IMG/VR virus record: IMGVR_UViG_3300020396_000025
Coordinates: 1 to 30,247 of that record
From: a virus
Strand: one strand, 5' to 3'
Length of the DNA: 30,247 bases
Made by a program: the position numbers and the translations under genes. Below the pieces are notes generated by a model. The model was given only the letters and a program-made list of their open reading frames with translations. It had not been told where the DNA came from and ran no database searches. Every line of letters begins with the position of its first letter. The first letter of the stretch is position 1. Positions 5,326 to 20,192 of the stretch are shown one piece after another.

Positions 5326-7152
5326 ATGGCTTTAAGTTTACGTACCGTCACACCAACAGCTCCACCGAAGTACATATACGAGGATGATGTAACTGGGAAG
5401 AGAACCGTTAGTAATGGTCAACTAAATGCTGATGGTACTCCATATTCTGAACCATCTTCTAATGAGGAGGCAGCAAGTAACGGGGAGAGTGCAGCTTTAG
5501 GTGCTGAACCTGAAGGAGCTGTAGAACCTATTAACTGGGGTACAACAAACGGAGATGCAGAAATTAGTTCTGGTGCCGGTGATGTTAATCCAGCTGGCCT
5601 TTATGGGAATAACCCGGATGGACTAAAATCTAGGGCTTATGAGATTAAAGATCCAGAAAAAACGATTGAAGGTGTATCTTCAGTTAGATCTAAATCTAAT
5701 TCATGGACATTATTAAATTATAGAAATTATGCTGGAGGAACTACTTATGGAGATCCTGATTATTCTCAATGGGGAACTGCAGTCGTAGGTACTGGTTCAT
5801 CAGCTGCTGATATATTAAACCCAACTGCGCATAGAATTGTTACTCATTGTGAAGAGAATGGCGGTGTAGGTTTTTCTTATGCATATAGAGATTTTATACA
5901 AACAGAACATTATGGCCAAATATCAAACGAATACCTAGTTACTTTAAGAAGGTTTTCTTTTCCAGTTGGAGATGATATTGTAAATGCTAGATCTTATGAT
6001 GAGGCAGGCCAAGAATTAGATATTTCAGAACCGGATTTAGCTAGAGCAATTACATGGTTATCTCCTAAATTAGGAAATGACCTAAAAGACATACTTTCAT
6101 TTGGTACTGGATTTGGATGGGAAGAAATTGAATCTTCTGTACAAACTGCATCAGGTGCTAGTACAGAAAAGAGAAGAGGTAGTATTGGTGCTTTAATTGA
6201 CGGCAGTCCTATTGCTAAAGCTGCAGAAGCAGGAGCTAATGGGCTTACTGCTGCAGAATCTGATCGTATTAATAGTAAAGGCCAACATGATGCTTTAGGA
6301 GACACATATCCAAATATGGTATATGGTCCTTACAATGCTATTAAAAAAGTATTAGCTAGAAATGATAAGGGTCTTCAATTTGATAATGAATTTAATCTTA
6401 ACTTTTATTATGACTTAAGAGGATTTGATAAGACATCGCCGAAGATAGTCTTTATGGATGTTATCTCGAATCTTCTAGCAATAACATATAACAATGCTCC
6501 TTTCTGGGGAGGTGCTGTTAGACATACCGGTGGGAACGGTTCTACTGGTAAGCCTTTCGGTGATTTTGATAAATTAAAAAATGGTGATTATTCTGGTTAT
6601 TTAGGATCAATAGTTACTCAATTAAAATCTACACTAGGTGCTGGGTTTGACGATTTAGGTAAAGCTGCATCTGGTTTAATGAATGGTAAAGGACTTAATG
6701 CATTAGGTGATTCTAAGATTTTAGATAACATGATTGGTGGAGCCTTAATGAAACATTTAGGTTCTCCTTCTGGTGGTGATATTATTAAAGCATTCTTAAC
6801 AGGAGATCCAACCGGGCAATGGCACTTAACAGTAGGTAATCCAATGAATCCAATGTTGGTTTGTGGTAACCTATGTTTAGAAACTGCTAAGTTTGAATTT
6901 GAAGGTCCTTTAAGTTATGAAGGCTTTCCTAGTAAATTAAAAATGACGGTGGCATTAAAACCAGGTAGACCTAGAGATAAATCAGAGATTGAGTCTATGT
7001 TTAACGCAGGTAGAGGTAGAATGTACTTACAACCGGAAGTATCGAAAATGGATGTTGACAAGGTATTAGATATGTCGGCATACGGAAATAAAGACAGAAG
7101 CAGGTTAACGCCAGATAGAGCGTTACGTAACTCTGACATGGCAGCAGGATAA
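5326..7152 (+). CDS. Baseplate/tail-tube junction protein (gp48/gp54-like), large
   Basis: A 608-residue virion protein. Residues 1-100 are an Asn/Gly/Ser/Glu-rich, probably flexible arm. Two blocks look like the tail-tube-type fold shared by T4 gp48, gp54 and gp19: residues 190-217 (FIQTEHYGQISNEYLVTLRR then FSFPVGDD) and 495-570 (PTGQWHLTVGNPMNPM, FEGPLSYEGFPSKLKMTVAL, GRPRDKSEIESMFNAGRGR). Between them is a long Gly/Ala/Lys-rich helical insert (about 250-480). In T4, gp48 and gp54 cap the hub and start tube polymerisation. It sits at the head of the baseplate block, right behind a promoter-like element, and is followed one base later by the gp53-like gene. The family assignment is my recollection of the motif pattern. 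A generic baseplate hub protein is the main alternative. Confidence 0.6.
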   Translation: MALSLRTVTPTAPPKYIYEDDVTGKRTVSNGQLNADGTPYSEPSSNEEAASNGESAALGAEPEGAVEPINWGTTNGDAEISSGAGDVNPAGLYGNNPDGLKSRAYEIKDPEKTIEGVSSVRSKSNSWTLLNYRNYAGGTTYGDPDYSQWGTAVVGTGSSAADILNPTAHRIVTHCEENGGVGFSYAYRDFIQTEHYGQISNEYLVTLRRFSFPVGDDIVNARSYDEAGQELDISEPDLARAITWLSPKLGNDLKDILSFGTGFGWEEIESSVQTASGASTEKRRGSIGALIDGSPIAKAAEAGANGLTAAESDRINSKGQHDALGDTYPNMVYGPYNAIKKVLARNDKGLQFDNEFNLNFYYDLRGFDKTSPKIVFMDVISNLLAITYNNAPFWGGAVRHTGGNGSTGKPFGDFDKLKNGDYSGYLGSIVTQLKSTLGAGFDDLGKAASGLMNGKGLNALGDSKILDNMIGGALMKHLGSPSGGDIIKAFLTGDPTGQWHLTVGNPMNPMLVCGNLCLETAKFEFEGPLSYEGFPSKLKMTVALKPGRPRDKSEIESMFNAGRGRMYLQPEVSKMDVDKVLDMSAYGNKDRSRLTPDRALRNSDMAAG

Positions 7153-7153
7153 T

Positions 7154-8083
7154 ATGAGACTTAGAACACTATTAAATAAAACACAAGGGGACGGCAAATA
7201 TATTTTTGCACAACCTACTATGATCTTTAGAAATAAAGATGATAATAGTAGCTCACGCTTACATGTCGTTAGAGAAGATGAGGTTACAAGACCTGACTTA
7301 ATTGCATTAGAGCATTATGGAGACCAAACTAAAACAGATTTAATCTTAAAATGGAATGGTATCTCTGATCCTTTTTCTTTACAACCTGGAGATGAATTAA
7401 TTATACCACCATCCGGTGTTGCATATAATAAATTAGAAAGACCGGCTGCTTCTGAAGACAATAAGATTAAAAATCAGTTCTTACAGAGTAAAAGGTTTAC
7501 TAAGAAAGATCAAAGAAGGTTAGATGCTTTAAAGAAGAAATATAATAAAGAAGTATTACTACCTCCTAATGTTATTCCAGTAGGTCAAAAGAACTATAAG
7601 TTTGATAAAGACGGTAATATTATATTTGGAGCACAAGCACAAAACGGAGAGGTTAACGGTTCAAGTAATACAAATGGTGGATTTGGATCTGGTGGAGGCT
7701 CGGGTAATGGTACTGGCTCCGGCGGTAGTGATGCTGTAGTTGACGCAATATTTGATGATCTAGGACAAGATTTAAGAGATAGTATTTTGGCAGCGCAAGG
7801 TAGTGGTGGATCAGGATCAGGATCTGGAGGCTCTGGAAACGGAAGTGGAAAGGACTTGACTGAGAATCAATTAGAGAATAATTTAAATAACGGTGTCGGT
7901 AAAGGTAGAGAAACAAATTCATCTGGAAAAGGTGCTGGAAACGGAAGTGGAAGTGGAAACGGAAGTGGAAGCGGTGGAGGTACTAACGCAAATTCGAACG
8001 GAACAAATAGTAATTCGAGCTCATCTCCTCAGGGTAGTAGTAATGCCGATGGTGTTGCTAATGATGGAGCTCCTTGTAATTAA
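7154..8083 (+). CDS. Baseplate wedge protein gp53-like with LysM-like domain and Gly/Ser-rich tail
   Basis: The first 95 residues match the gp53 pattern: RPDLIALEHYGDQTKTDLIL (46-65), then WNGISDPFSLQPGDELIIPP (67-86), a LysM-like ending. T4 gp53 has a LysM-like fold and clamps the inner baseplate ring around the hub, so this role is inferred here. Residues 100-135 are strongly basic. From about 167 to 309 the protein is a low-complexity Gly/Ser/Asn tail interrupted by a short helix (DAVVDAIFDDLGQDLRDSIL, 193-212), which is much longer than gp53 needs. It starts one base after the preceding stop and ends in APCN. The tail could be a flexible linker, an extension filling the baseplate, or an expanded repeat tract. 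Confidence 0.7.
   Translation: MRLRTLLNKTQGDGKYIFAQPTMIFRNKDDNSSSRLHVVREDEVTRPDLIALEHYGDQTKTDLILKWNGISDPFSLQPGDELIIPPSGVAYNKLERPAASEDNKIKNQFLQSKRFTKKDQRRLDALKKKYNKEVLLPPNVIPVGQKNYKFDKDGNIIFGAQAQNGEVNGSSNTNGGFGSGGGSGNGTGSGGSDAVVDAIFDDLGQDLRDSILAAQGSGGSGSGSGGSGNGSGKDLTENQLENNLNNGVGKGRETNSSGKGAGNGSGSGNGSGSGGGTNANSNGTNSNSSSSPQGSSNADGVANDGAPCN
7937..7972 (+). repeat. 18-base tandem repeat, two units, in Gly/Ser-rich tail
   Basis: Two adjacent 18-base units (GGAAACGGAAGTGGAAGT) differ only at the last base, and a third partial copy lies at 7835-7851. They encode GNGSGS repeats. Such tandem units expand and contract by slipped replication, so tail length may vary between relatives. Confidence 0.75.
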
Positions 8084-8092
8084 CACTAAAGG

Positions 8093-9607
8093 ATGGAATT
8101 AGAAAATCACATTTTAGCGGTTGTAGAACCGGCAATACTCCCAACAGAAATTAAGATGGATGCTCTGTCTGAAGAATCCGGTGATAATGTAGATAAACAA
8201 TCAAAAGAGGTTGGTGCATTTGAACCTTTTATATTATGTAATGGCGTCCAGGTTACATCCAATGAAATAGATTCATTAAATTTAGAATTAGATGGTAAAG
8301 TACCTAGATGTAATATATCTTTTAATGATGCACATGGAGCATTCAAGGTAGATTCAATGCCAAGGGATGGAGATTTCTTTACAATTCTCTTAAACTCAAA
8401 ACACCAAGAGACTTTTAAATCTATTCACATGGATTTTGATATTGTAGAAGTTCAAACTGAAGCAGATAATCCTAATACCCCAGGAGGTAGTTTAATTTCA
8501 TTAAATGGAGTTTGTAAAGTACCTAGGCTTTATGCTGAAGATTGTCAAATATTAGATTCTGATACGGCATTAAATCATTTAGAAACTGTGGCAAGAGAAT
8601 TAGAACTAGGCCTTGCAACTAATATTGACGCAACAGACGATGCTCAAGCTAGAATACAGGCTTATACTACATATTTTTCTTTTATTAAATCAATAGTGGA
8701 TGACTCTTATGTTTCAGACGATGCATTTGTAAAGTTTTATATAGATCAATATTATTACGTTAATTTTATAGACATTAATAAAATCTTTAATTCACCTAGC
8801 CCAAAGATAGATGAAGTTATGACAGTTTTAACTGGATTCGCAGAATCTGAAAGTAAGAAAAAAGGAAGAGAAGATGCTACAGATTCTGATAATATCGAAG
8901 TACCTTTATTATTAACTAACCATACAGATTTATCAGGCCTATCGTGTCATGTTGAATCTTATGAATTAATAAACAACTCAAATCAAATTAGCCTTGAAGG
9001 AGGCTATGCTAGAACATGTCAGATTTATGATAATAATTCTGAAGGTGGAGATAGATTTCAAGAGTTTACAATTGAGCCCTTAGTAACGGAAGAGTTATCT
9101 GAACTTGATGAACCTTTAAGAGGTAATAGAAAAGATGAGAGATATAAAGATCAGGTTAAGTTTAAATACATGGGTAGACAGAATGCTGGAGATGATGGAT
9201 TAGGTAATACACATTCAAATGCAATATTTACTAAACTACATGACGCACAAAATAACATGGAGATAGAAAAGATGAAGTTAAAAGTTAATGTAATTGGCTT
9301 TAATCCAGCAATCTATAAGTTTTGTAAAGTGCCAGTAATAATGTATCATTATGACGGAGTAAAGATCGAGGCTGAGCAAAAGGCGGATCAAAAGAGAGAA
9401 GAAGCTGGATTAACTGAAAGACCTATGAAAGCCGGTAAACCTAATGAAGATTTAAATGAAATTACTCAGATGATGGATAAATTTATATCAGGGTATTATA
9501 TAGTAGAAAATATTAATTACAGATACGATGCCGAATCGGCAATCACTACAGAACTAACTCTAATTAGAAGAGAGTGGCCAAGTAGATCTGCTAATTTAGC
9601 AGAATAA
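8093..9607 (+). CDS. Baseplate central hub protein (gp27/gpD-like)
   Basis: A 504-residue protein consistent with the hub of a contractile tail, which forms the trimeric ring between spike and tube. Residues about 42-145 look like the first hub barrel (PFILCNGVQVTSNEIDSLNL, then VPRCNISFNDAHG and a FDIVEVQT strand). The last part, ISGYYIVENINYRYDAESAI followed by LTLIRREWP (about 464-498), has the pattern that ends many gp27/gpD hub proteins. An acidic, helical insert (about 150-270) separates the barrels. The gene lies between gp53-like and tail-tube-junction genes and three genes upstream of the OB-fold spike, its expected partner. The start at 8093 is nine bases after the previous stop, with AAAGG close to the ATG. 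Exact homology to T4 gp27 would need structure-based comparison. Confidence 0.6.
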   Translation: MELENHILAVVEPAILPTEIKMDALSEESGDNVDKQSKEVGAFEPFILCNGVQVTSNEIDSLNLELDGKVPRCNISFNDAHGAFKVDSMPRDGDFFTILLNSKHQETFKSIHMDFDIVEVQTEADNPNTPGGSLISLNGVCKVPRLYAEDCQILDSDTALNHLETVARELELGLATNIDATDDAQARIQAYTTYFSFIKSIVDDSYVSDDAFVKFYIDQYYYVNFIDINKIFNSPSPKIDEVMTVLTGFAESESKKKGREDATDSDNIEVPLLLTNHTDLSGLSCHVESYELINNSNQISLEGGYARTCQIYDNNSEGGDRFQEFTIEPLVTEELSELDEPLRGNRKDERYKDQVKFKYMGRQNAGDDGLGNTHSNAIFTKLHDAQNNMEIEKMKLKVNVIGFNPAIYKFCKVPVIMYHYDGVKIEAEQKADQKREEAGLTERPMKAGKPNEDLNEITQMMDKFISGYYIVENINYRYDAESAITTELTLIRREWPSRSANLAE

Positions 9608-9630: not shown

Positions 9631-11184
9631 ATGGCTGAAAGAGATAACGGTAGAAATGCATTTAGAAAAGGAGCGAGAACACGCAAGATCCATGAGGATC
9701 CTACGTACTTATCTTTTATGCTTCTATTTCATAGTGACGATAAGTCTGAGGTCGCACATTCTCCTTTAATGAATGGCGAGGCACTTAGTTATTTAAGAAA
9801 TGTTGTTAGAACAGACCTAGGTGACATATATGCTGAAAATTTAGAAAACTTTAAAAGAGTATTATTAAAGGTTAACAGAGAGATGCCTTGGTTTTGGCAA
9901 GGTCTAAAAGGTATTGAGACTGCAATGACTTATGGCGATATGAAAGAGCCGTGGAGAGGTGCTGAAAAACCTATGTTAGAAATTGAATGTTTAGAAGAGA
10001 ATGTAGAATTAACTGCAATCGGCCTTATGGAATTATATAGAAATTCCTGTTTTGATTTACAGAGATTTGTAGAAGTAGTTCCTAAAAACTTAAGAGAGTT
10101 TTCAATGGACATTTATTTGTCAGAGGTGAGAACTTTCCAAAAAGATACTGATGCTAGAAACTTAGGGATTACAGATAACCCAGATTCTAGGATTAATTCA
10201 ACTGGATCAGATGCTAAAACTGTAAAAGACATCCACCCTGTATTTAAATCAAATGATACAATGCCAGGTTCCAATTTAAAGGGTACTGCAGACTCTAGGC
10301 CATTCGTAGCATTAAGGTTTACACATTGTGAGTTTGATATGGACTCAGTTGCAGATTATTTTGCAGATATGAGTAAAAACCCAGAAATGAAAAGACCATC
10401 ACTTAAAATAAAGTGGGGGACTTGTGTACCTTTAGCCTCAAGATTAGGTCCTAATATGTTTAGTGATAACAGGGATGCGAATACTATTAACAGAACAGAG
10501 CCTGTAAATGCTGCGACAGATCCTAATCAAATGCCATTAAATACAGTCAATCCTAAAGCTCAACAAAATGTTAGCTCGATGGATTCATTAAGTAATGTAC
10601 ACGATGGAACTGATCCTAGAGCAGAATCGATAACAGATAGAAAGAAGATTGGACTTGGAGATTTAGCTAAAGATACTTTAGGTAGTATTGCAGATGATAT
10701 TAAAGATACTGCAGAAGGTTTAGTATCTGGAGTGACAAACGCAATTGATAGTTTTAGTTTACAACCAAATGGAATCGGTAACGTACATGGTACAAAAATC
10801 GGTGGATTTGCAGGCACTTTATTAGATAATGCTGTCGGAAACTTAACTGGTAAATTATTACTTGATAATGTACATGGAGCCGGAGGGCTAGGCAGTATAC
10901 AAGATGCTATAAACGGTGGTTTAATTAATGCCGTTGGTAATTTAATACAGGGACAACTTAATAGCGGTGGAAGTGCTGCAAGTGCGCTTGGCGGCGGAGG
11001 TTCTGGTATTGGTGATCAGGTCCATGATATAGGAGTTGATAGTTCACCAGATGGTAATCTAGGTAATGCTAAAGTACACGATCCAGTTACTCCAACACCA
11101 GAAGGTCCTTTAAATCAAAGAATTCACCCACCAGGAGTTGATTCTACTCCAGATGGAAACTTAAACAATAACGTACATGAATAA
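9631..11184 (+). CDS. Baseplate/tail-tube junction protein (gp54/gp48-like) with repeated [IV]H motif tail
   Basis: A 517-residue protein. Residues 20-270 fit a tail-tube-like domain: KIHEDPTYLSFMLLF (19-33), MPWFWQGLKGIETAMTYGD (85-103), then LEIECLEENVELTAIGLMEL (116-135), FDLQRFVEVVPKNLREFSMD (141-160) and IYLSEVR. Contractile-tail initiators such as gp48 and gp54 show this 'diagonal of hydrophobics, then FxMDIYLSEVR' pattern. After about 300 the protein becomes Asn/Gly/Asp-rich with amphipathic helices and at least seven [N/Q/K/R][V/I]H copies (323, 385, 414, 464, 482, 498, 515), two of them inside near-repeats of GVDSxPDGNL. The gene follows the hub gene by 23 bases (with a weak AGGA) and overlaps the spike gene by eight bases. 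The tail may contact the spike, tape measure or hub; this is inference. Confidence 0.58.
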   Translation: MAERDNGRNAFRKGARTRKIHEDPTYLSFMLLFHSDDKSEVAHSPLMNGEALSYLRNVVRTDLGDIYAENLENFKRVLLKVNREMPWFWQGLKGIETAMTYGDMKEPWRGAEKPMLEIECLEENVELTAIGLMELYRNSCFDLQRFVEVVPKNLREFSMDIYLSEVRTFQKDTDARNLGITDNPDSRINSTGSDAKTVKDIHPVFKSNDTMPGSNLKGTADSRPFVALRFTHCEFDMDSVADYFADMSKNPEMKRPSLKIKWGTCVPLASRLGPNMFSDNRDANTINRTEPVNAATDPNQMPLNTVNPKAQQNVSSMDSLSNVHDGTDPRAESITDRKKIGLGDLAKDTLGSIADDIKDTAEGLVSGVTNAIDSFSLQPNGIGNVHGTKIGGFAGTLLDNAVGNLTGKLLLDNVHGAGGLGSIQDAINGGLINAVGNLIQGQLNSGGSAASALGGGGSGIGDQVHDIGVDSSPDGNLGNAKVHDPVTPTPEGPLNQRIHPPGVDSTPDGNLNNNVHE

Positions 11185-11893
11185 TAATGAACTTTTTGCT
11201 GATAATTTACGAGAAACACACTGGCTCGGAGAAGTAGTTATTAATGAAGATCCACTTCTACAAGGTAGAGTGCGTGTAAAAGTTTTCGGTAAATTTGATA
11301 AATTAACAGATGATGCTATTCCATGGGCAACTCCTATGAATAGAGATCAAGTCGGTTCACATGCAGTTCCTAGAGTTGGAGATATTGTTGCAGTCCGTTT
11401 TGATAATGGTAACATCTATCACCCAGAATATTGGTTTCAAGTAGACCAAAATGATGATTTAAAAGGAGACATCTTAGAAGCATCTGATGCACCGCATGAT
11501 GTTATTTCATTAGTATATGATGCAGAAAGAAATGTAAGAATTTACCACTCACCAGAAGATGGCCTGGTCATTACAAGAGGCGAGGGTAAAAAAGAGAGAC
11601 CTATCATTCAATTAGACGAAGAAGGAATTATTAAGATTTCAACTGATAATAAGATCTTTATGGATTGTGGAGATATATTTGTATCTAATACAGGAGAAGG
11701 CGGAGCAGATGAAACTGAACCAGCTGTAAGAGGACAGTCTTTACAAGATTGGTTACAAGCCTTATTAGATGATTACAATGCACATATACATCCAACAGGA
11801 GTTGGACCATCAGGTCCACCAATGCCTCCTACGCCAGCAACTGTAGCAAAATTATCTAGTACACATATTAAGTATCAACAAAAGAATAAGTAA
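11177..11893 (+). CDS. Baseplate spike protein with OB-fold (gp5/gpV-like), no lysozyme domain
   Basis: A 238-residue spike protein. Residues 15-90 fit the OB-fold of gp5/gpV spikes: HWLGEVVINEDPLLQGRVRV, IPWATPM (48-54) and VPRVGDIVAVRFDNGNIYHP (64-83), ending in EYW. Residues 105-172 alternate short strands (VRIYHSPEDGLVITRG, PIIQLDEEGIIKISTD) as in a small triple-stranded beta stalk. The C-terminus has NAHIHPTGVGPSGPPMPP (201-218), a pattern that often ends these spikes. T4 gp5 carries a lysozyme domain; this protein is too short for one, so cell-wall digestion must come from elsewhere. It would sit under the hub as a trimer and pierce the outer membrane. It overlaps the upstream gene by eight bases. 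Confidence 0.8.
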   Translation: MNNNELFADNLRETHWLGEVVINEDPLLQGRVRVKVFGKFDKLTDDAIPWATPMNRDQVGSHAVPRVGDIVAVRFDNGNIYHPEYWFQVDQNDDLKGDILEASDAPHDVISLVYDAERNVRIYHSPEDGLVITRGEGKKERPIIQLDEEGIIKISTDNKIFMDCGDIFVSNTGEGGADETEPAVRGQSLQDWLQALLDDYNAHIHPTGVGPSGPPMPPTPATVAKLSSTHIKYQQKNK

Positions 11894-11895
11894 CT

Positions 11896-13818
11896 ATGCC
11901 TGCACTGTGGCCCAAATTTATTCCTGACCTAGCTAATACAATAATGAGCCAGCAGTTTACCAAACCTGGTGGAGCGATACTTTCTTATCCGCTACCAAAG
12001 GTTGGAACTGATCAAGTGCCTATCTTTCCCCCATCTGGAGATTTAATAAAATCTATTGCTCCTGGAAATCCTATTAATGCACAACTAACTACTAATCCTG
12101 CTGGAATGATAAATGCGATTAATCTTGCACCACTAAGCGGGCGTTATGATTTTGGTAAAGCAGTTGCTCAGCATTATATTGATGCAGTAAAAGGGGCTCC
12201 AAAAGCACAAACACCATTTGGTGCGTTTCATGAAAATAACGGTCTTGCTGAATTAATTTTAAAAGAGGGTTATGGTATTGCATTCGAAAGATTATTAAAA
12301 GAGGGAGACATACCCTTAATGGACCAGTACGATGAAGATGGTAATTTAACTGAGATGGGTAAAGAATCCCATCCAGCATACGCTGATTTCTGTCCAGATG
12401 TGGCAGCTCCGCCAACTGAAGAAGAACTTGAGGAGGAACGAAAAAAGAATGCATTAGCATTTAATAAATTCGTGGATGAACAAAAGTCTGAGTATAATTT
12501 ACGTAAATTTAAGTTTTATCAATTTCCATGTCTACTAGGCACAGAGACCCAAGAAGAATTAGAGATTATCTTTGCTACTAGAATTTTACTGGGATATGAG
12601 TTTATGAATACGAAAGCTAAGAGGTGGGATTACTTTACATGGGCATGTCATTTAGGAAAAGAGAGTTATGAACTGCGTTACAATGGAAATCAAAGATACC
12701 AAAATATTAGCCCTAGAGTTAGAACGGATATTACAAACGCAGGATATGATTGGAAGAAATTAGCTGATCAGGTTTCTAGATATGTAAAACGTGCGTTGTT
12801 AGAGGCACATCCAGCAAAAACCGGAATACTTGGAACGCCTGAAAATGATGGGTATATGTTTGGCTTTAATTCTGCAACAAAGAAAAGGTTTTATAGAGAC
12901 CCTACGAAACCAATTCAATATCCTACATTAAAGGATCGATCAGGTAAAGGAATATCTCCAGACTTTTGTCCTATTAATCAATATAAAATACAAGTACCTT
13001 ATGACTTTGAGGAAGATAGCCAAAGGCCTAAGATCCTAACATCTAATGTAGTGGCAACATTTACATATTATCCCAATAAAAGAACTGGTGGCCTCCCGTA
13101 TGTTGGCGATATTAATAAAGTTATATTTGGTCGAGGAAGTTTCGATACCGCCGGTGGTGGTGAAAATAAGTATATAAAGACTACAAGCTGGGTTAAAAAT
13201 AAATACGAAGAGTTTGAGTGGGAAAAACATTGGATAAAAGTACCTGAAGCAAAATTAAGAGCAGCCTCTACAAAACCAGACGCTCAAGCAGAATTCTTTA
13301 AGATCGATCCTAAACCAGAAGGTACTCTATTTAAATTTGAATTCTATAAAGCTAAATGTGCTAAAAATGCAGCAGCAGGATGTGAAGAGGATGCAGCAGT
13401 GGTTGATTTCCCATTTGCACCAAGTGGAACTACGCCTGGTGGTAAATCTTTTAGTGGAGATCCGTATGAGATGATGGCAAAGGTAACAATAGCATATTGG
13501 TATGCTTGTATTGTCAAACCATTCGGACCAATGCCTGCAGCTTTACCTGCAATGATTAACGCTCCATTAGGAGGTCTTTATATTCCGATCTATTATGGAA
13601 GTGCAAATAGACTTGCAAATCATTTAAGAAAGGCTTGGGCTACAGGTAAGACTTTTGATAAAGTGCCGATTACACAACCGCCAGCATTTGCAACAGCAAC
13701 AGCAGTTGCAGGAGCGTATGCCCTACATCTGCTTGAATTTAAACTATTATATCTTGGTGGTATTCCAACGCCAGTCGGTCCAATTCCGATGGTTGGTTTC
13801 GTACCAGTGGTATTTTAA
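11896..13818 (+). CDS. Unrecognised virion-associated protein, 640 aa
   Basis: I do not recognise this protein. It begins two bases after the spike stop and ends the plus-strand baseplate run, so a structural or spike-associated role is likely. The N-terminal 80 residues are Pro-rich (FTKPGGAILSYPLPKVGTD). An acidic helical patch follows at about 170-200 (PTEEELEEERKKNALAFN). The middle is mixed, with DFCP occurring twice (about 164 and 355) and several other Cys. Residues about 525-600 form a hydrophobic Ala/Pro/Gly region (APLGGLYIPIYYGS), and the last 25 residues are very hydrophobic and Pro/Gly-rich, ending in GFVPVVF. No catalytic motif is evident. Alternatives are a baseplate hub accessory, a spike-tip partner or a cell-envelope-acting factor. 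Confidence 0.6.
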   Translation: MPALWPKFIPDLANTIMSQQFTKPGGAILSYPLPKVGTDQVPIFPPSGDLIKSIAPGNPINAQLTTNPAGMINAINLAPLSGRYDFGKAVAQHYIDAVKGAPKAQTPFGAFHENNGLAELILKEGYGIAFERLLKEGDIPLMDQYDEDGNLTEMGKESHPAYADFCPDVAAPPTEEELEEERKKNALAFNKFVDEQKSEYNLRKFKFYQFPCLLGTETQEELEIIFATRILLGYEFMNTKAKRWDYFTWACHLGKESYELRYNGNQRYQNISPRVRTDITNAGYDWKKLADQVSRYVKRALLEAHPAKTGILGTPENDGYMFGFNSATKKRFYRDPTKPIQYPTLKDRSGKGISPDFCPINQYKIQVPYDFEEDSQRPKILTSNVVATFTYYPNKRTGGLPYVGDINKVIFGRGSFDTAGGGENKYIKTTSWVKNKYEEFEWEKHWIKVPEAKLRAASTKPDAQAEFFKIDPKPEGTLFKFEFYKAKCAKNAAAGCEEDAAVVDFPFAPSGTTPGGKSFSGDPYEMMAKVTIAYWYACIVKPFGPMPAALPAMINAPLGGLYIPIYYGSANRLANHLRKAWATGKTFDKVPITQPPAFATATAVAGAYALHLLEFKLLYLGGIPTPVGPIPMVGFVPVVF

Positions 13819-17998: not shown

Positions 17999-18355
17999 AT
18001 GGATTTTTATATAAAATACATAGGAGACCCTAATTATCAGACAGGAGTTGTTCAAAACGTAGGTGAAATTGAACAATTATTGACTCAGATAGAAACCGTT
18101 CTTTTCACAAGAAAGAGAGATGTTTTAGGTACTCCATCATTTGGTTGTAACTTAGAAGATATTGTATATAGTTTAGGTCAAAATGAATTCCAAATTAAAA
18201 ACGAGATACAGGGCCAATTGGCTAATTTCGTTCCCCTATCAGGAAAGTACAAAACCACGGTAAGCGTTAAGTTTATGAAGGGTGTTGCTAGGGATATGGC
18301 ATTTATTGACATTACTGTTAACAACGAGTACCAAATCAAAGTAAATTTAAGATAA
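17999..18355 (+). CDS. Baseplate wedge protein gp25-like
   Basis: A 118-residue protein of the GPW/gp25 family, the size usual for this protein. The diagnostic part is TRKRDVLGTPSFGCNLEDIV (37-56), which corresponds to the 'GTRxxxPxFGSxLxxxLF' signature of gp25 proteins. A helix (QFQIKNEIQG-like) and two closing strands follow. gp25 sits in the inner baseplate wedge and helps start sheath polymerisation through a handshake-like domain. It is followed eight bases later by the gp6-like gene, the order expected in T4-like and other contractile systems. The leader before the ATG is ATACATATATAA, which contains a TATA string close to the start; whether this is a promoter is unclear. Confidence 0.85.
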   Translation: MDFYIKYIGDPNYQTGVVQNVGEIEQLLTQIETVLFTRKRDVLGTPSFGCNLEDIVYSLGQNEFQIKNEIQGQLANFVPLSGKYKTTVSVKFMKGVARDMAFIDITVNNEYQIKVNLR

Positions 18356-18362
18356 ATAACTA

Positions 18363-20192
18363 ATGGCAGAATTAAAATTTTTAAGCACACTAAGAACATC
18401 GGCTAATCAAATTAAGACCGATGCTCGAACATATATCGCAAGAGTTTACAAGCGTGCGAATACTCTATTTACTGAAGCATCACCATTTGCTCAGATTATT
18501 TCTGTTATGGCTGAGTTAGGTGAATTAATTATGTTCTATGTAGAGGATTCTTTAGTAGAACAAAACATATACACTGCGCAACAACCAGAATCTATTTATG
18601 GTATATCAAGATTAACAGGACATGATGCTACAAGAGGTTTTGCTGCAACTGGTGAAATTGAATTTAAATGGGCAGTTGGATCAGATCTTGGTAAAATTGC
18701 AGGAACTGGATTAAATGTTGATGCAAGATCAGAATTAAAATGTGAATTAAATGGATTAGTTTATACTCTATTAACTTCACAAGATAAATTTAGATTAGAA
18801 AAGTCAAATAAGTACGCTATAAAATGCGCAATTGTTCAGGGTAAATTTGAATCTCAAAGGTTTACTGGAACTGGAGAGCCAATGCAATCATATAATGTAC
18901 AAACAAGTTCTTTAACAGATCATTCTAAAGTTAGCGTTTCAGTTAACGGTGAAAAGTGGACAAAACACGATTCAATGTATGACTTATTAAATAACGAAAA
19001 AGCATATATTCTTAAGACTGGTATTTCTGGTGGCCTTGATGTTTATTTTGGAACTGGTAACTTTGGTGCAATACCAAGTGCTGGTAATTCAATAGAGATT
19101 GAATACATTAAGCATGCAGGTTTCCAAGGTAACTTAGATGATGCACAAGATATTATACTTAAGTGGGATGCAGAAGGTTCTGATTCTAATGGTGATGAAT
19201 TTGATTTAAATGAATTCTTAGAACTTACAGTAACTTCATCTCCTAAGATGGGAGCTGATAAAGAGTCTGTTGAATTTACTAAGTTAATGGCACCCTTAGC
19301 GTCTAAATCATACGTTCTAGCGACTCCAGATAATTATGAGTATTTCCTATCTAGATATGGAATGTTCTCGTATGTGGATGCTTACAATACGACTGAGGAC
19401 CAGTATTTAGATGATGATAATGTGATTTACATTTTTGCAATTCCAGATGCTAGAAGAAAGTTATTAGCGGATCAAGATTATTTCTCGATTCCAGTAAATG
19501 AGATGTTCTTTGATCAGAATGAATATGATAAGATGTCGCAAGTTATTCAAGATAGTGGCCAACAAATGGTTACAACTGAAGTAGTATTTGTAAAACCACA
19601 AGTTAGAAAATATTCTATGGATATTAATATTAGATATTTTGAAGGACACACAAAACAAGAGATATTCGTTAATGTTAGAAGAGCTGTAAGTGATTACATG
19701 CTTAATATTACAAGAAGAGATAAACTACCTAAGTCTGATATTGTTTACATATTAGAAACTATTGAAGGTATTGATGCAGTTAATGTAAGATTTATATCTG
19801 AGACAGAAGAGACTGCAAGAAGATTAGGGTATTATTTGTCTAAGACTGTAACTGTAGTGCCACAAGAGCCTGTAGTTTTAGAAGACATAGGTAATGGTAA
19901 ACAAAAATATATTTTCTTTAAACAAATAGAAGAAGTTAAAACTGTAGATGTTGATGAAACAACTGCTATCCCATACGATGTAGCTGGACTAGATGAATGG
20001 GGAGATATTATTATGGATAAAGAAGAAGTTGCTGTTTTCAGAGGTGGTTGGCAAGATAGAGATGGTGATGAAATTGTTGACGATGCATTAATGAATGCTG
20101 AAGCTGCACTTTCAATTAACTTTGATGCAACACCAGTACCTAGAACTATTTACACTAGAGTGCAGGCTGGAAATAGAAAAGCTATAAAATAA
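18363..20192 (+). CDS. Baseplate wedge protein gp6-like (baseplate J family)
   Basis: A 609-residue protein that follows the gp25-like gene by seven bases, as gene 6 follows gene 25 in T4. Its N-terminal segment RVYKRANTLFTEASPFAQII and the following FYVEDSLVEQNIYTAQQPES, ISRLTGHDATRGFAATGEIE agree with gp6/J-type proteins. The middle contains YVDAYNTTEDQYLDDDNVIY, and the C-terminal part RKYSMDINIRYFEGHTKQEI then VRRAVSDYMLNITRRDKLPK and DIVYILETIEGIDAVNVRF is the J-type closing domain. gp6 dimers join wedges into the ring that controls baseplate opening. The length is close to T4 gp6 (about 660). The C-terminus adds an acidic segment. Its stop overlaps the next start by one base. Confidence 0.8.
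   Translation: MAELKFLSTLRTSANQIKTDARTYIARVYKRANTLFTEASPFAQIISVMAELGELIMFYVEDSLVEQNIYTAQQPESIYGISRLTGHDATRGFAATGEIEFKWAVGSDLGKIAGTGLNVDARSELKCELNGLVYTLLTSQDKFRLEKSNKYAIKCAIVQGKFESQRFTGTGEPMQSYNVQTSSLTDHSKVSVSVNGEKWTKHDSMYDLLNNEKAYILKTGISGGLDVYFGTGNFGAIPSAGNSIEIEYIKHAGFQGNLDDAQDIILKWDAEGSDSNGDEFDLNEFLELTVTSSPKMGADKESVEFTKLMAPLASKSYVLATPDNYEYFLSRYGMFSYVDAYNTTEDQYLDDDNVIYIFAIPDARRKLLADQDYFSIPVNEMFFDQNEYDKMSQVIQDSGQQMVTTEVVFVKPQVRKYSMDINIRYFEGHTKQEIFVNVRRAVSDYMLNITRRDKLPKSDIVYILETIEGIDAVNVRFISETEETARRLGYYLSKTVTVVPQEPVVLEDIGNGKQKYIFFKQIEEVKTVDVDETTAIPYDVAGLDEWGDIIMDKEEVAVFRGGWQDRDGDEIVDDALMNAEAALSINFDATPVPRTIYTRVQAGNRKAIK

Follow-up and report, generated by a model that had tools for sequence, protein, structure and literature searches.

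A putative gp54-like tube initiator whose predicted disordered tail carries an array of candidate docking motifs

The window, that is, the whole 30,247-nucleotide stretch of virus DNA analysed here, contains a block of baseplate-like genes in which a 517-residue protein is encoded between a putative hub gene and a spike gene:

7154..8083, + strand: LysM baseplate protein, candidate partner (Pfam LysM 2.6e-5; PHROG baseplate wedge subunit 2.3e-4)
8093..9607, + strand: putative hub protein, candidate partner (PHROG match of unknown function)
9631..11184, + strand: coding sequence of the tube-initiator-like protein (517 aa; 107 distinct complete relatives)
11177..11893, + strand: spike gene (Phage_base_V; Pfam PF04717 8e-9), downstream synteny partner

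This position places the tube-initiator-like gene in the baseplate hub block, its surroundings comprising the LysM protein, the putative hub (so named from gene position only) and the Phage_base_V spike, with wedge proteins further along, at 17999–18355 and 18363–20192. The protein itself has no family match in Pfam or PHROGs, and the weak Pfam or PHROG matches of single relatives look like chance. Relatives were found in IMG/VR, from the best 80 of 183 loci (L019–L098) and the best 80 of 170 (L104–L183); exclusion of L121, whose locus has no stop codon, and of L181 (261 aa) reduced the 109 distinct proteins (64 + 45) to 107, with the homologues of the Lak phages, MaF61 and LR756502 read outside this set. 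The spike gene lies directly 3′ of the tube-initiator-like gene in 97 of the 106 relatives with enough sequence, seven having no spike match and two a spike elsewhere; one further relative had too little sequence to be counted.

Several neighbouring products have features of their own. The LysM protein (7154–8083, +) ends at its C-terminus in a long Gly/Ser/Asn-rich low-complexity tail, and the putative hub, ∼500 residues long in most relatives, reaches 630–740 residues in some (L061, L073–L075, L079–L092), which suggests an inserted domain in the longer forms. Directly after the spike gene, a 640-residue protein (11896–13818, +) is present in all 80 closer-family loci and has no match in Pfam or PHROG. 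A well-conserved 608-residue protein within the baseplate block (5326–7152, +), of which the window copy has no Pfam match, was considered as a gp48-type cap; neither profile comparison, which gave no link to gp48 or gp54, nor a PDB sequence search supported that assignment.

Structure prediction divides the tube-initiator-like protein into two parts, AlphaFold2 (42 sequences) giving only residues ∼26–275 of the full-length protein as folded:

9706..10455, + strand: folded domain, residues 26–275, predicted tail-tube fold (AlphaFold2 models, structural matches)
10456..11181, + strand: predicted disordered C-terminal tail, residues 276–517, holding the motif array (pLDDT <50 nearly throughout)

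A domain-only model (53 sequences; pLDDT 73, pTM 0.68) has its best structural match in 9f4a_BQ (Z 10.8, rmsd 3.7, 163 aligned), a KP1 relative of T4 gp54 by sequence (E 1.5e-129), followed by 5iv5_BG (Z 10.6, rmsd 4.7, 168 aligned); entry 5iv5 includes gp54, with chain BG a candidate for it. Lower Z scores were obtained for jumbo-phage tubes (8bfk_A, 9.7; 9xpf_G, 9.4) and for the T4 tube (5w5f_A, 9.1). Foldseek alone returned no PDB match for the protein at E ≤ 0.001, and PDB sequences searched with a profile yielded two weak matches only, to interaptin and keratin, which were taken as noise. Profile comparison with T4-type gp54 and gp48 detected no sequence homology; hhalign of A2, A3 and A7 against six gp54 gave probabilities below 1%, though divergence may hide homology. 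The protein is thus described as a gp54-like tube initiator by predicted fold and gene position rather than by membership of a sequence family, and it is very probably a tube-fold baseplate protein. The label of tail-junction protein under which it was originally predicted agrees with the tail-tube fold, the gp54 structural matches and the gene position alike.

T4 gp54 is present in six copies at the baseplate–tube junction (PMC3004832). The likeness of the window protein to T4 gp54 and its KP1 relative lies in the predicted fold, the best structural Z scores and the baseplate gene block; in contrast, its gene neighbour is the spike gene, where that of T4 gp54 is gp48, no sequence homology with T4 gp54 was detected, and a motif-bearing tail is absent from all six T4-type gp54 examined.

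The motif in question was originally proposed as a repeated [polar][VI]H element, listed as nine tetrapeptides, and all nine are present as claimed. Nine of the 12 His residues in the protein are preceded by Val or Ile (mean 1.3, maximum 7 in 20,000 protein shuffles), as are all seven within residues 301–517 (shuffles: mean 0.95, maximum 5). The pattern [NRKQD][VI][HY][EDGPN] occurs nine times in the 517 residues against 0.22 expected, and zero times or once per ORF in the 24 other window ORFs tested. The copies, together with the two GVDS[ST]PDGNL repeats that had also been noted and are likewise present, are as follows, residue counts referring to 59 aligned closer relatives:

9685..9696, + strand: KIHE (19–22), no conserved copy; His column N 26, S 13, H 12, D 7, gap 1
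10228..10239, + strand: DIHP (200–203), no conserved copy; His column H 22, N 17, V 15, D 4, T 1
10594..10605, + strand: NVHD (322–325), copy in nearest relatives only; gap in 41/59, His in 8
10780..10791, + strand: NVHG (384–387), copy; ring position Y 27, H 18, F 13, N 1
10867..10878, + strand: NVHG (413–416), after the LLL[GD] segment, most conserved copy; N 59, V 58/I 1, H 58/Y 1, G 59
11017..11028, + strand: QVHD (463–466), copy; ring position Y 27, H 23, G 7, L 1, F 1
11032..11061, + strand: linker GVDSSPDGNL (468–477), in the ∼17-residue unit; unit consensus
11071..11082, + strand: KVHD (481–484), copy; ring position Y 37, H 19, N 2, F 1
11119..11130, + strand: RIHP (497–500), copy; ring position H 21, Y 18, V 1, gap 19
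11134..11163, + strand: linker GVDSTPDGNL (502–511), in the ∼17-residue unit; unit consensus
11170..11181, + strand: NVHE (514–517), C-terminal copy; H 50/Y 9

On alignment of the relatives, seven of the nine sites belong to one element, and KIHE(19) and DIHP(200) do not. The former directly precedes a conserved EDPTYLS segment and the latter lies in a low-confidence loop of the predicted model; both are probably coincidence, since their His columns are mixed. The tail sites mostly exchange His for Tyr or Phe: His is mixed with Tyr (or Phe) at five of the seven, the copies at 413 and 322 departing from this pattern through near-constancy and frequent absence, respectively. The His spacing, described as irregular, proves to be so only in part, the last four copies being 18, 16 and 17 residues apart, with 16, 17, 18 and 20 the commonest short spacings in closer relatives.

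Copies were counted in the closer family from the LLL[GD]NVHG anchor to the C-terminus, in 53 of 59 proteins (the six without an anchor match were dropped), yielding 233 copies, mainly N/K/R-[VI]-[HY]-G/E/D/P. Within these 53 tails, Val or Ile stands before His in 156 of 159 cases and before Tyr in 77 of 88. Distant relatives also use Phe at the ring position (for example GNVFD, GNIFE, alongside GNVYG), such that the element is kept as N/R/K-[VI]-[H/Y/F]-(G/E/D/P) across the 107 distinct relatives, with a tail copy number of 0–8 and at least 34 changes on the folded-domain tree. Alignment of homologues had been suggested as the check on whether the motif persists while its number varies, and this is what was found; together with the predicted disorder of the tail and the excess above chance, it favours the short-linear-motif reading first put forward. 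In pairwise comparison of close relatives, identity in the motif triplets does not exceed that in the linkers for five of six pairs (0.67–0.76 vs 0.75–0.83), since the motif tolerates H/Y, V/I and N/R/K exchanges; for the most distant pair the motif is better kept (0.71 vs 0.54). Among 1,314 ORFs of at least 100 residues in 88 loci, motif enrichment was confined to family members, and the motif thus gave no pointer to a partner. When two tail peptides were used to search the phage collection, the first matched only PTm1/PTm5 and the second had no match.

From these computed features (the motif, its conservation and copy-number change, the predicted disorder and fold, and the gene order), we infer ring formation, docking, multivalency and a partner as follows. 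The folded domain (26–275) would form the ring from which the tube grows, and the disordered tail would present several copies of the docking element N/R/K-[VI]-[H/Y/F]-(G/E/D/P). The Val/Ile and ring side chains of each copy would enter a pocket of a multi-copy neighbour, of which the hub, the LysM protein or the wedges would be likeliest, and several weak contacts per subunit, multiplied by six if the protein is a hexamer like gp54, would fasten the tube initiator to the baseplate. The reading as a whole, of a gp54-like tube initiator with a multivalent linear-motif tether, probably from hub to wedges, is given a probability of roughly 0.6; that the tail is an array of docking motifs is itself probable, while the hub, LysM protein or wedges as partner are proposed tentatively, by analogy.

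The analogy is with tube initiators of other contractile tails, from which the motif tail is placed at the hub–wedge joint. In Mu gp43, E217, Pam3 and XM1, a region beyond the tube domain, on its C-terminal side, connects hub with wedge (PMC11915804), and in phage A-1(L) the tube initiator is paired with a LysM protein (PMC10966104). In Mu gp43, E217, Pam3 and XM1 this region is folded as a domain, whereas the tail of the window protein is predicted to be disordered and carries a repeated motif.

An alternative account of the tail is drawn from the linkers. In the closer family, 66 cases conform to a 17-residue unit, R-[IV]-[HY]-E/P-P-G-V-D-S-[ST]-P-D-G-N-L-N-x, and because the linker GVDS[ST]PDGNLN is conserved too, the whole ∼17 residues may be the functional unit. 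PDG may make a tight turn, and strand, PDG turn and strand could give short beta-hairpins that together build a small fibre or collar rich in beta structure once the hexamer is assembled, instead of separate docking peptides; strong conservation of the linker alongside the motif is in keeping with this, as are the 16 successive 14-residue units of the Lak relatives. Against it, AlphaFold2 predicts the tail without strands and at pLDDT <50, although as a monomer prediction it could miss a fold adopted only in the hexamer, and the NVHG copies at 384 and 413 fall outside the 17-residue unit. The hairpin account is, on balance, unlikely. Less likely still is that the motifs bind the tape-measure protein within the hub lumen at tail initiation: T4 genes 29, 48 and 54 are adjacent, yet no gene of the window was recognised as coding for a tape measure, and in two known tails the C-terminus of the tape-measure protein touches spike and hub (PMC10966104 and PMC11915804).

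The terminal copy calls for separate treatment, as the His codon (CAT) of NVHE(514–517) provides the ATG of the spike gene (11177) in the window. An N[VI][HYF] sequence lies within six residues of the C-terminus in 84 of 107 relatives, against 0.3% of shuffled tails; N[VI]N ends occur in 11 and neither form in 12. The terminal His or Tyr codon doubles as the next gene's ATG in 45 of the 107, the window protein included; conservation of the terminal copy in these is accordingly in part a coding constraint, which makes that copy weaker evidence. Retention solely for the spike start codon is nevertheless highly improbable: among the 62 relatives without codon overlap, 39 keep N[VI][HYF], another 11 end in N[VI]N and 12 show neither form, and the internal copies counted, whose ring codons are CAT (110), CAC (46), TAT (83) and TAC (24), are free of that constraint. 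The start codon is refuted as a full account and remains a partial cause.

Metal binding, the other function originally offered for the motif, was suggested by the many His residues in a constant local context; it has very little probability, given that Tyr or Phe replaces His at most sites and across whole lineages, and that the terminal-array sites are separated by ∼16–20 residues in a tail predicted to be disordered. Equally improbable is processing by a phage protease, for although a maturation protease could conceivably use a short motif repeated in flexible linkers, no protease was linked to the motif, and one of its two most constant positions is the extreme C-terminus, where cleavage would be pointless.

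Relatives are also found in PAU, PTm1/PTm5, pT24, MA9V-1/-2, MaF61, the Lak megaphages and large metagenomic phages, the hosts of those named being mostly Bacteroidota, with Sphingomonas the recorded host of PAU. Host information is indirect, as a scan of genome contigs found no relative of the tube-initiator-like protein; with the LR756500 homologue as query, one locus alone was recovered, 100% identical. PAU gp255, PTm1 ORF-235 and MA9V-1 ORF111 are true relatives by tblastn and carry an N[VI]Y copy near the C-terminus; they differ from the window protein in having two to four tail matches, Tyr at the terminal ring position and no 17-residue units. The tail of pT24, a true relative, is without the motif, the MaF61 homologue has no such array and that of LR756502 has one weak copy.

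Tube initiators are a known kind of protein, and the open-licence literature searched yielded no description of a motif-array tail. If the tether reading is true, a flexible multivalent joint sits inside a rigid contractile machine, with a number of binding points that varies between relatives, in contrast to the folded linkers described in the model phages considered here; the motif would also give a sequence handle by which to name the tube initiator in many mostly unannotated jumbo phages. A broader generalisation, in which the hub–wedge joint of these jumbo phages is a modular linear-motif tether whose valency evolves freely, up to tens of repeats in Lak megaphages, is speculative and rather doubtful.

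By its domain, the Prevotella Lak megaphage homologue is related to PTm1 ORF-235, and its tail is a long run of tandem repeats. In Lak-A1, with TAG read as Gln, the domain is followed by the 16 successive 14-residue units, like NYVEPEFNLDKSDQ, a tail in the style of that in the window, much expanded, its link to the N[VI][HY] array being one of analogy only. Beyond the 14-residue repeats, Lak-A1 and Lak-C1 (L101 and L102) carry degenerate repeats rich in MDMT-like words.
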